IMG/VR virus record: IMGVR_UViG_3300032309_000152
Coordinates: 1-34,427 of that record
Origin: a virus
Strand: one strand, 5' to 3'
Length of the DNA: 34,427 nt
The notes beneath the pieces were generated by a model, which saw only the letters and a program-made list of their open reading frames with translations, searched no databases and was not told where the DNA came from. A program made the position numbers and the translations under genes. Positions 19,894 through 24,721 of the stretch are shown piece after piece. How positions within the stretch are numbered: position 1 is the first letter of the stretch; every line of letters starts with the position of its first letter.

Positions 19894-20223
19894 CTCCGTA
19901 GTTTTTACGCCAAGACGCTCACTTGCTTGCTCAGACCGCCATATGTCTGCCTTCATTTGGGCAGCAATCAGCATATATTTCAAAGTCTCCTCACGAATGG
20001 TAGCCTCTTGTAAACCTCTTAATAATTCTTCGTATTCTGGGTGAGCATAAGCCTCACGCTCTTGTGCTATACCAGAATCTATGCCTCTAGCCATAGCATC
20101 TTTCATCAGTAAAGATTTTTTAGTACGCAAGAAATTTTCTATAAAAACTCTTTGAGCCTTCGCCTCGGCAAATTTGCATGAATTTTCAATGATGTACTCT
20201 ATCGCTCGGTAAGGTGCTTTCAC
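19891..20223 (-). CDS. Helical early protein, unknown function
   Basis: This 110-residue protein is nearly all helical: MKAPYRAIEYIIENSCKFAEAKAQRVFIENFLRTKKSLLMKDAMARG, then EREAYAHPEYEELLRGLQEATIREETLKYMLIAAQMKADIWRSEQ. It overlaps the nuclease-like gene by 4 bases (ATGA). Such proteins often accompany VRR-NUC-like genes in temperate and environmental phages. No catalytic or DNA-binding motif is evident. Its stop lies in the operator palindrome of the next transcription unit. Confidence 0.8.
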   Translation of the reverse strand: MKAPYRAIEYIIENSCKFAEAKAQRVFIENFLRTKKSLLMKDAMARGIDSGIAQEREAYAHPEYEELLRGLQEATIREETLKYMLIAAQMKADIWRSEQASERLGVKTTE

Positions 20224-20486
20224 TTGACTACTCCAATCATCCTAAGTGCGGCTTCTGGGCAATCTATTCTTGCCAAGGTACTTCCAGACCAATTTTCAAA
20301 AAAGTCGGCTTGTAGCTTCGTCAAACGCTTTTTAGAGTCTGTTTTAATCTCTACCAGAAATGTGTGACCCTTGTAGCCAACCAGTAGGTCAACTGGTAAG
20401 CCAATAATCCAAACATATGCGCCAGCACCACGCAAGGCAGAAACTATCTGTTCTTGGTTAGCATCAACTCTTGCTGCTCTCCTCAT
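20220..20486 (-). CDS. VRR-NUC/PD-(D/E)XK-like small nuclease
   Basis: The product is 88 residues. The motif set is E12 in the first helix (NQEQIVSALRGAG), PVDLLVGYKG (Asp 33), LVEIKTD (Glu 46 - x - Lys 48) and LTKLQADFFENW (Gln 59). This is the order of VRR-NUC and other stand-alone PD-(D/E)XK nucleases, some of which act as structure-specific or Holliday-junction enzymes. All key residues are present, so it should be active. It overlaps both neighbours and lies in the replication operon. Confidence 0.82.
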   Translation of the reverse strand: MRRAARVDANQEQIVSALRGAGAYVWIIGLPVDLLVGYKGHTFLVEIKTDSKKRLTKLQADFFENWSGSTLARIDCPEAALRMIGVVK

Positions 20487-20700: not shown

Positions 20701-21377
20701 TCAAAACATAGCCTCTTGAATTTGTTTAGGTTGTTCATGTGCAAACAATTGTGGTTGTGAAGCAGCTTGCTCTATACGCTTACAGGCAATGTCAAAGTAT
20801 TTTTGTTCACGTTCAATTCCGATAAATTTGCGTCCCATCTGAATTGCAGCTACTCCTGTTGTACCGCTACCCATAAATGGGTCTAAGATAGTTCCAGAAG
20901 TCCATTCAACAAACTTACACATCAAACCCACAGGTTTTTCAGTAGGGTGAAATTCATTGTTTGTTCTTGGATATTCAATTACATCTGTTGGTCTCTGCTT
21001 TGGAAAAAAATGATTTTGCATTGCATAGAAAAAAGCAACTTCAGTTTGTCTAGCGTGTTCATGGTGCAAGTCACCCATTGACCAATTATTTTTTACCCAT
21101 GTAATTAAACTTTTTGGTTTTGGATAGTCATAAATGTTGTCCCATCTACCAAAAGCATAAATTGAATGATTTGTGTTCTCCAAGCACCATTTAATTACCT
21201 CAATTGCAATATCGGCAGATTCATCGTTAGCAATTTTTAAATGTTTTTCATGTCTAAAATTAGATTGAAAACTCATTCCATAAGGAGGGTCAGTAATGAC
21301 AGCATCAACTTTGTCAATCAATGGCAAAACTTCTAAGCAGTCGCCAAGATAAAGCGTAGCATTTCCAATTTCTACTT

Positions 21378-21381
<4 letters not shown>
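20701..21381 (-). CDS. DNA methyltransferase, beta class (N6-adenine or N4-cytosine)
   Basis: The product is 226 residues. Motif IV DPPY is at 31-34, the HPTEKP block at 145-150, motif I DPFMGSGTTG at 167-176, and FIGIER (motif II) at 186-191. Catalytic motif before AdoMet motif defines the beta class; DPPY most often goes with adenine-N6. It likely protects phage DNA from host restriction or times replication. No cognate restriction enzyme is seen, so it is an orphan. ATG 21381 has a strong ribosome binding site (AAGGAG) and overlaps the upstream gene by 4 bases. Confidence 0.92.
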
Positions 21382-22216: not shown

Positions 22217-22369
22217 TTATTTAAACCACTCTGGTCTAAGTTCTTTAAGTTGATAAATACGCAACTCAGGGATTTTCTTCCATAGAAAGACAGCAGCCCT
22301 AGTTATACCAAGAATTCTAGCAAGCTCACTCTGTGAGCCAGCAAGTGTAATAGCAGTTTGTTTATCCAT
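22217..22369 (-). CDS. Cro-like HTH repressor
   Basis: The product is 50 residues, MDKQTAITLAGSQSELARILGITRAAVFLWKK, then IPELRIYQLKELRPEWFK. The helix-turn-helix GSQSELARILGITRAAVFLW (residues about 11-30) and the L.EL.P.W end are those of Cro/YdaS-type regulators. I chose ATG 22369 because the longer frame reads through the promoter region. Only six bases separate the -10 box TATACT from this ATG, so the mRNA may be leaderless. It is divergent from the recombination operon and is the obvious protein to bind the dyads at 22406-22437 and 19878-19893. No CI-like partner or integrase is present. Confidence 0.82.
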   Translation of the reverse strand: MDKQTAITLAGSQSELARILGITRAAVFLWKKIPELRIYQLKELRPEWFK

Positions 22370-22389: not shown

Positions 22390-22437
22390 AACAATTTGTT
22401 GATGTTAGGGAAATCACCTAGACAAATACCTGTTTAG
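22390..22437. promoter_or_regulatory. Operator cluster between divergent early promoters
   Basis: Three dyads are visible: AACAA-T-TTGTT (22390-22400); TAGGGAAATCACCTA (22406-22420), an imperfect copy of the perfect palindrome at 19878-19893; and CTAgACAaataccTGTtTAG (22418-22437) overlapping the -35 and spacer of the rightward promoter. The arrangement is that of a phage genetic switch. Confidence 0.55.
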
Positions 22438-22448
22438 TTTGATATACT
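22419..22448 (+). promoter_or_regulatory. Rightward early sigma70 promoter
   Basis: -35 TAGACA (22419-22424; 5 of 6), spacer 18, -10 TATACT (22443-22448; 5 of 6). A 46-base leader with GCCC/GGGU pairing ends in AAGGAG before ATG 22495. The whole block is repeated on the minus strand at 19804-19879. Confidence 0.82.
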
Positions 22449-22584: not shown

Positions 22585-22739
22585 TGAACACACACTACCT
22601 AACTCAAGTCCGCAGGCTATTCAGCACCTATGATGCGCCTCCAGAGGTCATTAGAGCCTATCAAAAGCAATGGGTGAAGTCAGTACGCCAGTTGGGTGAT
22701 AAGTGGCTTGTAGCAAAGCCTATCGAAAGAATCCAATGA
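22584..22739 (+). CDS. 51-residue basic early protein
   Basis: MNTHYLTQVRRLFSTYDAPP, then EVIRAYQKQWVKSVRQLGDKWLVAKPIERIQ. I start at ATG 22584, which overlaps the previous stop; the upstream codons are inside the other gene. It is helical and basic. The end overlaps the next start by 4 bases. Unknown function. Confidence 0.72.
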   Translation: MNTHYLTQVRRLFSTYDAPPEVIRAYQKQWVKSVRQLGDKWLVAKPIERIQ

Positions 22740-22909
22740 CCAGACAAGATGCAATCAAAGATTTATCTCATGGTGAATACTGTTGCTACTGTACTGAGCA
22801 AAAGACCTACGGCTCATGCTGTGGAGAAAATCACTTCGTACCTTTCGAGGATTTATACGAGGAAGACAAAGAAGAAATGATTAAAGAGTATTTAAGTAAA
22901 GGAAAATAA
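22736..22909 (+). CDS. Small Cys-rich early protein
   Basis: The product is 57 residues from ATG 22736 (overlapping the prior stop as ATGA). The core GEYCCYCTEQKTYGSCCGENHF has five Cys and a His, likely one or two metal sites. The C-terminus is a charged helix (YEEDKEEMIKEYLSKGK). It sits directly before the ERF gene and may be a recombination accessory or an anti-host protein; neither is shown. Confidence 0.75.
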   Translation: MTRQDAIKDLSHGEYCCYCTEQKTYGSCCGENHFVPFEDLYEEDKEEMIKEYLSKGK

Positions 22910-22910
22910 A

Positions 22911-23513
22911 ATGGTACACAAGAAGTTAATGGCAGCAAGAATGGCTTTGCAAGAAGCAACACTTAAAAAGTCTGGTCACAATAAATTTGCTGGCTACAGT
23001 TACTTTGAACTTGGTGACTTTATCCCAACGATTACCGAGATTTTTTATAACATCGGTTTGTGTGGTGTAGTGTCTTACGATTCTGAGATAGCAAGTCTGA
23101 CAATTACTGACACAGACGATGGAACTAGCCTTGTCATTACATCACCTATGGCAGATGCCAATCTAAAGGGATGCCATCCTATCCAGAACCTTGGTGCAGT
23201 CGAAACATACACCAGACGCTATCTGTGGGTTACAGCAATGGAAATCGTTGAGCATGACGCTCTTGATTCCTCTGCGCCAATTAAGGAACAAGTAATCATC
23301 ACGCCAGCACAAGGCATCCGAGATGAGTTAGATATTGAAATACTAAAGTATCTTGACGAATTAGCAGTTGAACTGATTGCTATTTGTGAGAAAGACCCCA
23401 AGGCAGCTTGGGTAAGGTTGGAGAAGGAGAACTTAGAAGCAGACCAGAAGGTTGCTCTATGGACTCTGATGCCAAGTAACGTGAGAAGCGCAATTAAGAA
23501 AGCAAAAGGTTAA
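22911..23513 (+). CDS. erf: ERF-family single-strand annealing protein
   Basis: The product is 200 residues. KSGHNKFAGYSYFELGDFIPTI (20-41) and IQNLGAVETYTRRYLWVTAMEIVEHDALD (91-119) are the hallmark blocks of the Erf/essential recombination function family. These bind single-stranded DNA and anneal complementary strands in recombination and genome circularisation. P22 itself uses Erf for circularising headful-packaged DNA, which fits the P22-like virion here. The C-terminal part is variable. The ribosome binding site AAAGGA precedes ATG 22911. It is followed by an SSB-like protein and a nuclease, a compact recombination set. Confidence 0.9.
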   Translation: MVHKKLMAARMALQEATLKKSGHNKFAGYSYFELGDFIPTITEIFYNIGLCGVVSYDSEIASLTITDTDDGTSLVITSPMADANLKGCHPIQNLGAVETYTRRYLWVTAMEIVEHDALDSSAPIKEQVIITPAQGIRDELDIEILKYLDELAVELIAICEKDPKAAWVRLEKENLEADQKVALWTLMPSNVRSAIKKAKG

Positions 23514-23514
23514 T

Positions 23515-23757
23515 ATGGAATACGACAACACAAACAGAGGCTCACTCTTTAAGAATGACCGCAAAGACGATGCAAAGTTTCCTGATTACAAAGGAAGCAT
23601 TAACGTAGATGGAACAGAATACTGGCTCTCTGCTTGGATTAAATTAAGCAAGGATGGGAACAAGTTTATGTCTCTGTCTCTGAAAAATAAAAACGCAGAT
23701 GCTGCTTTGAATAAGCCTAAAAAAGCATCGTTTGATGAGTCAGAAATTCCCTTCTAA
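23515..23757 (+). CDS. Small ssDNA-binding-like protein with SSB-type C-terminal tip
   Basis: The product is 80 residues. The first 60 residues are beta-rich (NRGSLFKNDRKDDAKFPDYKGSI, EYWLSAWIKLSKDGNKFMSLSLK), a small barrel-like pattern. The end is FDESEIPF, closely similar to the DDDIPF tip by which bacterial SSB recruits repair proteins. It directly follows the ERF gene. I infer a minimal phage SSB or ERF partner that can dock host SSB-interacting enzymes. Confidence 0.75.
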   Translation: MEYDNTNRGSLFKNDRKDDAKFPDYKGSINVDGTEYWLSAWIKLSKDGNKFMSLSLKNKNADAALNKPKKASFDESEIPF

Positions 23758-23761
23758 TCAA

Positions 23762-24124
23762 ATGCGAAATTCTCTGGCTAGTCATACAGACTTCAGAGAT
23801 TTCGCTAACTTGATACAAAGTAATCCTCACTTCTTGCCTAGCAATATAGACATGATATGCGAAAGGAGAGGACACTTCTTAATTGGTGAATGGAAGAAGC
23901 CAAGTGAGAATATGGCTACTGGTCAGCAATTGCTACTCAAGGCTTTTGCTCAAGTGCCTAAATTTACTGTGCTGGTCATCATTGGTAACACAGACAAAGA
24001 ACAAACTGAAGTTGGAGATGTGTTTCAAGTGGTGCTAGGCAGATGCGTAAAGATAGGAGAAGGTCTTGATTTCCTAAAAGACTTTTATGTCATGTGGTAC
24101 GAATTTGCAAACTCGAAAGGATAG
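23762..24124 (+). CDS. Putative PD-(D/E)XK nuclease of the recombination cassette
   Basis: The product is 120 residues from ATG 23762; a start at 23735, overlapping the previous gene, would give 129. Neither has a clear ribosome binding site, so the start is uncertain. Key residues are NIDMICERRG (Asp 30), FLIGEWKK (Glu 43 - x - Lys 45), then MATGQQLLLKAF (Gln 55/56), then strand FTVLVIIG. This D...ExK...Q order is the PD-(D/E)XK nuclease core. It would supply resected ends for the ERF protein next door. The family name is not certain. Confidence 0.7.
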   Translation: MRNSLASHTDFRDFANLIQSNPHFLPSNIDMICERRGHFLIGEWKKPSENMATGQQLLLKAFAQVPKFTVLVIIGNTDKEQTEVGDVFQVVLGRCVKIGEGLDFLKDFYVMWYEFANSKG

Positions 24125-24126
24125 TT

Positions 24127-24432
24127 ATGTCATATGCAAATATAGAGATGAAGATAATTCAATGGGCAGAAGCTAGAAAAATTATTCCTAACAGCACACC
24201 AGAAGTTCAGCTTCTTAAAGCAATGTCAGAGATTGGAGAACTTGCAGATGCAACGATTAAAAATGACGAGGATGCTATTGTTGATTCTGTTGGTGATGTC
24301 ATGGTCTGCCTTATTAACTACTGTGTTTTGCAAGACATAAACTTAGTACAATGTATGGAAATAGCATACGACCAAATTAAGAATCGTAGGGGTATTCTTT
24401 TGCCTAACGGAGTGTTCCAAAAAGAAGTATGA
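24127..24432 (+). CDS. MazG-like nucleotide pyrophosphohydrolase
   Basis: The product is 101 residues, start ATG 24127 with AAAGGA upstream. LLKAMSEIGELADATIKNDEDAIVDSVGDVMVCLINYC carries the ExxE (35, 38) and DxxxD (53, 57) metal-binding pattern of the all-alpha MazG/dUTPase-like superfamily. It would remove selected (d)NTPs, or lower alarmone levels during infection as proposed for other phage MazG proteins. The end overlaps the next start by 4 bases. Confidence 0.83.
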   Translation: MSYANIEMKIIQWAEARKIIPNSTPEVQLLKAMSEIGELADATIKNDEDAIVDSVGDVMVCLINYCVLQDINLVQCMEIAYDQIKNRRGILLPNGVFQKEV

Positions 24433-24503
24433 GTCTTGTTTTTGACATAAAGATGCTCTACGATTTAGTTGCAACAATACGTTGTCTAAGGAGAACATTA
24501 TGA
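24429..24503 (+). CDS. 24-residue possible micro-protein
   Basis: ATG 24429 overlaps the MazG-like stop and the TGA at 24503 overlaps the next ATG, as in a coupled operon. The sequence is MSLVFDIKMLYDLVATIRCL then RRTL. It may be real or a coupling reading frame only. No other support. Confidence 0.35.
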   Translation: MSLVFDIKMLYDLVATIRCLRRTL

Positions 24504-24721
24504 AATTTGAAATGGAAATTGGCTTTAGCGAGCATGAGAAAATTACAGTCGAGACATGGGACTTTGACAAAATTCAAATCATCCAAGACTTTATTGCTTT
24601 TCAAGAAGAACACGGCTGGGCAGTTGAATATGAAGCAGTTGAACTTGATGATGATGATATTGAAGAAACAGAAGAAGAAGAAGTCCCAGTCTTTGCCTTA
24701 AACGCTCATGAGCCTTTGTAA
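24500..24721 (+). CDS. Acidic small protein ending the rightward operon
   Basis: The product is 73 residues, MKFEMEIGFSEHEKITVETWDFDKIQIIQDFIAFQEEHGWAVEYE, then an extreme acidic run (ELDDDDIEETEEEEVP). The start has a perfect AAGGAG. The acidic tail mimics the charge of DNA, so a DNA-mimic inhibitor is possible; this is inference only. Its stop lies one base from the stop of the oppositely directed gene. Confidence 0.75.
   Translation: MKFEMEIGFSEHEKITVETWDFDKIQIIQDFIAFQEEHGWAVEYEAVELDDDDIEETEEEEVPVFALNAHEPL

Follow-up and report, generated by a model that had tools for sequence, protein, structure and literature searches.

The locus described here raises the question of whether three adjacent phage genes, encoding an ERF annealing protein, a small single-stranded DNA-binding protein (SSB) and a PD-(D/E)XK-like nuclease, form one fixed recombination system or a constant pair with an accessory gene beside it. 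The window, the whole stretch of DNA that was analysed, is an entire virus record of 34,427 bases. The three genes belong to a short plus-strand operon flanked by blocks of minus-strand genes, in which a 57-residue Cys-rich protein, ERF, an 80-residue SSB, a 120-residue nuclease and MazG are encoded head to tail. The intergenic gaps are 1 nt between the ERF and SSB genes, 4 nt between the SSB and nuclease genes and 2 nt between the nuclease gene and that of MazG. We read the locus as the operon that serves early recombination and replication in a tailed phage of freshwater type. A first-pass annotation of the same DNA had given coordinates and reading frames, an FDESEIPF tip on the SSB and the nuclease residues D30, E43-x-K45 and a following Gln (Q55), all of which were correct on re-reading. 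The features are:

20220-20486, minus strand: second PD-(D/E)XK-like protein, 88 residues, likely the standing junction resolvase (phrog_93 endonuclease, E = 1.4e-6)
22217-22369, minus strand: small HTH protein of Cro-like type, encoded divergently to the operon and a probable repressor (translation judged by eye only)
22419-22448, plus strand: sigma-70-like promoter match, TAGACA-18-TATACT with TG before the -10 (10/12 consensus positions), the likely operon start
22736-22909, plus strand: 57-residue Cys-rich small protein upstream of ERF in the same operon (open reading frame; weak match to phrog_19782, E = 0.0013)
22911-23513, plus strand: ERF single-strand annealing protein, 200 residues (Pfam PF04404; phrog_155)
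23515-23757, plus strand: 80-residue small phage SSB, predicted four-stranded sheet with a disordered tail (phrog_18154, phrog_7364; AF2)
23731-23754, plus strand: SSB-type C-terminal tip FDESEIPF (conserved PF)
23762-24124, plus strand: 120-residue PD-(D/E)XK-like nuclease (Hjc/VRR-NUC-like) in the accessory slot, ATG at 23762 (AF2; PDB matches; BFVD)
23849-23926, plus strand: span of the nuclease residue codons, D30 at 23849-23851, E43 at 23888-23890, K45 at 23894-23896 and Q55 at 23924-23926
24127-24432, plus strand: MazG-like pyrophosphohydrolase, the next operon gene (PF03819, 22.7 bits against a cut-off of 22; phrog_1992, E = 2.8e-29)

The promoter-like match sits between the divergent HTH gene and the operon. 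A promoter scan of the window returned 2 matches, fewer than the mean of 7.1 in shuffles, so this match is not by itself evidence of function. We consider it likely that the locus encodes a single-strand annealing protein (SSAP) and SSB pair of a known kind, in which the SSB is unusual and probably not of the OB fold, its tip recruits partners and the nuclease is an exchangeable accessory. Every activity in this reading is one that we infer from observed family membership, conservation of the tip and of the nuclease residues, gene order and gene exchange.

ERF scores 30.3 bits in a Pfam profile search against the curated PF04404 cut-off of 25 and matches phrog_155 with an E-value of 6.6e-19, bearing out its earlier identification as an annealing protein; its annealing activity is predicted from the family. 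NCBIfam profiles gave no match for ERF, the 80-residue SSB or the 88-residue protein. The SSB gene adjoins the ERF gene in all 132 ERF-bearing contigs, with a gap of at most 20 nt in 115 and of more than 100 nt in 17. Three of these 17 inserts were searched and contain HNH endonuclease genes in two contigs (L013:5196-5699 and L100:5536-6000) and an Arc-like gene in the third (L216); the remaining inserts look HNH-like by eye. ERF and the SSB are a constant pair, in the arrangement that defines an erf-ssb module (erf directly followed by ssb). Such modules are already known in Firmicutes phages, and a section of the published account has erf paired with ssb in almost 80% of cases (PMC8093625). 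The same section describes variable downstream genes, as in the window, there including HNH endonucleases (PMC8093625). In the window clade the SSB belongs to PHROG 18154/7364, and the slot after it differs from those modules in holding a Hjc-like nuclease or a winged-helix protein.

The 80-residue protein matches phrog_18154 (E = 1.1e-16) and phrog_7364 (E = 1.6e-16), both already annotated 'single strand DNA binding protein', and by this family annotation it would coat ssDNA. A tblastn search matched relatives in 137 phage records, among them ORF24 of VpV262, for which an old annotation reads 'similar to single strand DNA binding protein C-terminus'; no study of the PHROG 18154/7364 family was recognised in the open-access literature. 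The likening of its C-terminus to the tip of bacterial SSB, made in the first-pass annotation, is upheld. All 102 distinct close relatives keep the terminal P79-F80 and have at least two acidic residues among the last 8, and the linker ahead of the tip differs in length and sequence among the SSBs of the window clade. Among 1124 other plus-strand open reading frames of 60-400 residues from the same loci, just 14 end in PF (9 of them acidic), and chance was rejected as an origin of the tip on this figure. The conservation of PF despite a variable linker, set against its rarity in background reading frames, argues that the tip is under selection. Incomplete proteins are omitted from the conservation counts, which keep 63 nuclease, 124 SSB and 108 ERF rows from 138 contigs.

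The tip extends well beyond the close relatives. Eighteen named phages were chosen by us from the 137 matching records, and in 17 of them the SSB closes with acidic residues and Pro-Phe, in several cases exactly as DFDDDIPF, with very different linker lengths; that of phiVC8 has DFDDDIPF 14 residues before the protein end. The SSBs of phiEcoM-GJ1, PM1, VpV262, phiVC8 and SH-Ab 15497 are related to the 80-residue protein and have the same tip, but several of these adjoin genes for DNA polymerase or adenylosuccinate synthetase instead of ERF, and most have longer linkers than that of the window. The SSBs of phiVC8 (L243:2495-3010) and K227 (L245:2495-2974) appear by eye to be tandem duplications with two domains per chain, which fits a domain acting in pairs. 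In a set of 25 distinct distant SSBs, the last two residues are PF in 20 and PW in 1; 2 others carry the motif a few residues ahead of the terminus and 2 are without it. Loss of the tip in homologues, which the first-pass annotation held would count against its proposal, was therefore absent from the close relatives and present in 2 of these 25. Of three Burkholderiales plasmid relatives, chosen from 7, two end in DIPF or EIPF and the third (G4) has no tip.

The protein had also been described as a small beta protein, and its AF2 model agrees, predicting a four-stranded sheet and a short helix at pLDDT 80, with an average below 60 over the last 20 residues. It has the acidic Pro-Phe tip in common with bacterial SSB but not the OB-fold profile: PF00436 matched neither the 80-residue protein (Pfam, E up to 1) nor 27 relatives, and a canonical OB-fold SSB was rejected on this basis. 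The best-ranked structural matches to the model, all with Z of 4.5 or below, include Pur-alpha, the anti-CRISPR-type entry 7jta, which we take to be PC4-like, and the T5 PC4 homologue; those to Pur-alpha (Z 4.5 over 50 residues at 3.5 Å) and T5 PC4 (Z 3.8) are weak. Both proteins are small antiparallel-sheet ssDNA binders, as the 80-residue SSB would be, although the SSB model is without the long C-terminal helix of PC4/Pur folds. Foldseek searches of the PDB gave E-values above 0.1 throughout for the SSB model and none below 0.001 for either the SSB or the nuclease model, and sequence searches of the PDB with both proteins gave chance-level matches only. The structural matches are a hint of a PC4/Pur-like fold, and the 80-residue protein would probably act as a dimer with a non-OB, PC4/Pur-like sheet.

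The Sak4-SSB system of phage HK620 resembles the window in placing an annealase beside a distant phage SSB with an acidic, Pro-Phe-ended tip (PMC5928155). According to passages of that study, the annealase depends on the last six SSB residues for binding to ssDNA covered by SSB, and on the tip, NDYPPF, for its loading and stimulation (PMC5928155). HK620 combines the RecA-like Sak4 with a 21 kDa DUF669 SSB in those passages, whereas the window combines ERF, of the Rad52/Erf superfamily, with an 80-residue SSB of another family. Recruitment of host proteins by the tip, as first suggested, may occur; by the HK620 precedent, the phage annealase would be an equally good partner. In the mechanism proposed here, ERF would anneal complementary single strands and the SSB would coat ssDNA, probably as a dimer. 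Its disordered tail would show a bacterial-SSB-type tip that brings partners to the coated DNA, most likely ERF from the adjacent gene and perhaps proteins of the host that bind SSB.

The earlier assignment of the third protein as a PD-(D/E)XK-like nuclease is supported by its fold class and by the invariant D30, E43, K45 and Q55, which have not been lost in homologues. All 59 distinct close relatives keep these residues and G54, and a set of 36 sequences reaching down to 39% identity shows no variation at D30, E43, W44, K45, E49, G54 or Q55. The protein has no significant Pfam or PHROG family, and no nuclease family in Pfam; NCBIfam returned only a chance-level match (E = 0.062), and a search of genome contigs returned no relative. 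Its AF2 model has a pLDDT of 87.4. Resolvases of the Hjc, Hje and RecU kinds fill PDB ranks 1-11 against this model (Z from 7.2 down to 5.3), the best being 4tkd, with a Z of 7.2 over 97 residues at 3.2 Å, where Z below 8 can reflect a common arrangement; the best resolvase E-value in Foldseek was 0.11. The VRR-NUC protein FAN1 stands at rank 49 (Z 3.4) among the structural matches (VIA), a list from which the lack of a family does not count against it. Among the matches listed, the predicted fold resembles Hjc/RecU junction resolvases more closely than lambda Exo or a resecting exonuclease.

Two BFVD relatives from uncultured phages, A0A6J5PT93 (47% identity, TM 0.72) and A0A6J5MDZ2 (35%, TM 0.91), are named VRR-NUC and have the same predicted fold. 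PF08774 (VRR-NUC) does not match the 120-residue protein, and relatives in two contigs (L295 and L289) score 14.0 and 13.0 bits against a cut-off of 23.8; the name may therefore be automatic. Hjc proteins are described in part of PMC8805305 by motif I, (G/P)X4EX9-11G(F/Y), motif II, hDhhXp, and motif III, hhh(E/D/Q)hK. Motif II is found in the window protein as I29-D30-M31-I32-C33-E34 and motif III as L40-I41-G42-E43-W44-K45, with G42 taken as allowed (A or M in some relatives), whilst motif I was found neither ahead of D30 nor conserved in the alignment. Motifs II and III, and probably the overall fold class, are common to the window protein, archaeal Hjc and Hjc_15-6 of phage Tth15-6, and the D-x12-E-x-K spacing equals that given there for Hjc_15-6 (D40, E53, K55; PMC8805305). 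Unlike Hjc, the window protein is without the motif I Glu, has a reduced N-terminal helix and has additional conserved residues (H8/D10, E34-R35, W44 and G54-Q55). Because of the middling Z, the missing motif I and the lack of a Pfam match, we keep it outside both Hjc and VRR-NUC. Its residues and modelled fold class point to a PD-(D/E)XK-like nuclease of presumed activity, which may act like a junction or flap nuclease.

Relatives of the nuclease also occur away from ERF. In another clade, 22 of 51 loci have the order RecE-like exonuclease, RecT, SSB (of the same PHROG family), RusA and nuclease, with RusA directly upstream of the nuclease; this count is of the run without a glycosyltransferase-like gene. 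In other loci of the 51 the nuclease is near RusA only (9) or is alone among the five queries (16). The SSBs of the RecT clade end in D(I/V)PW in 25 of 26 cases. At one locus (L255:2581-6354), the genes for a RecE-like exonuclease, RecT and a tip-bearing SSB (DIPW) are followed without interruption by those for RusA, a glycosyltransferase-like protein and the nuclease.

A second gene of resolvase type accompanies the module in the window clade. Of 34 long related records, chosen by us and including 16 picked for having the nuclease, 25 encode the 88-residue VRR-like protein and the other 9 encode RusA, with none encoding both and none neither; all 34, like the window, have a resolvase-type gene besides that of the 120-residue nuclease. 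Positions were compared in the window and the 16 records with the nuclease. The 88-residue protein and RusA share one location there, which lies on the other strand and 3.3 to 4.8 kb upstream of the nuclease, the exception being two records whose ends fall in between. This exact alternation, with one in each record at the same place, makes the 88-residue protein or RusA the likely standing resolvase. The type of resolvase is independent of the presence of the 120-residue nuclease, with 4 RusA and 12 VRR-like proteins in positive records and 5 and 13 in negative records (Fisher p = 1.0); the nuclease was rejected as the sole resolvase for this reason. It is therefore unlikely that the third protein is simply the Holliday-junction resolvase of the phage. 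Its closest PDB matches are Hjc, Hje and RecU and its catalytic spacing is that of Hjc_15-6, but the VRR-like protein or RusA is present in all 34 records regardless of the nuclease, and RusA lies directly upstream of the nuclease in the RecT clade.

The gene after the SSB is itself exchanged. Across 129 scorable contigs (those with less than 700 nt after the SSB and no nuclease being left out), the slot holds the nuclease in 62 and a winged-helix protein of phrog_1123 (for example L105:6334-6651 and L108:2482-2790) in 68, with both in 2 and neither in 1. Contigs found via ERF alone number 72, of which 68 were scored, giving 29 with the nuclease, 40 with the winged helix and 1 with both. On a FastTree phylogeny of ERF, at least about 15 slot changes are needed, an approximate figure, compared with 25-42 in shuffles, and ERFs that are 99.5% identical carry different slot genes. 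The slot has switched repeatedly between nuclease and winged helix. Further, 18 of the 34 long records have no nuclease anywhere and retain ERF-SSB. The exchange, together with the occurrence away from ERF, indicates that the nuclease is an accessory of recombination modules rather than a fixed part. Of the expected co-occurrence of the three families, the ERF-SSB part stands (132 of 132 contigs) and the nuclease proves optional (29 of 68 contigs found via ERF).

It is also improbable that the slot carries cargo for host takeover or counter-defence, such as degradation of host DNA, with no direct part in recombination. Its near-exclusive swapping with an unrelated DNA-binding protein and the lack of association between nuclease and resolvase type would suit such a role, but the nuclease is found again in another recombination module, alongside the same SSB family, and the proteins of the slot belong to DNA-handling kinds. 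It is very unlikely that the locus encodes a true minimal Red system of three genes, with the nuclease resecting ends for ERF: the three genes are tightly ordered and, with PF09588 (YqaJ/lambda-Exo) found in 0 of 35 records, no other member of that family would resect, but the nuclease is missing from 18 of 34 long records that keep ERF-SSB, shares its slot with a winged-helix protein, has a predicted fold nearer to Hjc/RecU than to lambda Exo among the matches listed and is joined in another clade by a separate RecE-like exonuclease. Lambda Red has a YqaJ/lambda-Exo exonuclease with its annealase, lambda Exo presumably being a PF09588 member; besides the absence of that family from the records, the 120-residue protein has no Exo-family match in Pfam or PHROG. 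The comparison of the three-gene set with lambda Red, drawn in the first-pass annotation, thus falls with the exchange of the slot, and a lambda-Red analogue with an obligate nuclease was rejected on the exchange and the PF09588 result.

We return to the SSAP-SSB pair with an exchangeable accessory gene. In this pair the nuclease would probably cut branched or flapped recombination intermediates, and the slot may instead hold a winged-helix DNA-binding protein, as in about half of relatives. Compared with the open-access literature, the conservation of the tip across this SSB family and into plasmids appears to be new, and so do both exclusive swaps and the fold, which is probably not OB. These swaps (nuclease/winged helix and VRR-like/RusA) are natural replacement experiments. 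A bare 60-residue DNA-binding domain with an SSB tip would be among the simplest systems for testing tip loading of an annealase, and it would also be a small candidate component for recombineering. Should the fold really be PC4/Pur-like, a DDDIPF-type tip would have become attached to an unrelated fold that binds ssDNA, and the tip would be a portable recruitment signal.

A wider relationship is suggested by DUF736 (PF05284), against which the 80-residue protein scores 13.7 bits, below the cut-off of 22.1, with weak matches in 23 of 27 relatives (best E = 0.022). An hhalign comparison of the SSB family with the three plasmid relatives, one of them annotated DUF736, gave a Prob of 98.6 and an E-value of 5.4e-16. 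We tentatively suggest, as plausible though short of an even chance, a non-OB, DUF736-related SSB superfamily common to phages and some plasmids, with single or tandem domains and an independently acquired tip. The window protein would be one of its smallest tip-bearing members, coupling ssDNA coating to ERF loading, with a swappable nuclease or winged-helix gene next to it. Two DUF736-type proteins of Burkholderiales megaplasmids (L338:2270-2767 and L340:2285-2785) are seemingly two-domained, with an SSB-type tip at the end, and the gene after that in L338 has a sub-threshold NERD nuclease match.

Two further genes lie near the operon. An N6/N4 DNA methyltransferase is encoded in the early region at 20701-21381 on the minus strand (PF01555, E = 4.7e-22). 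A 73-residue protein at 24500-24721 on the plus strand, without a Pfam or PHROG family, includes the strongly acidic stretch DDDDIEETEEEEV and may act as a DNA mimic.
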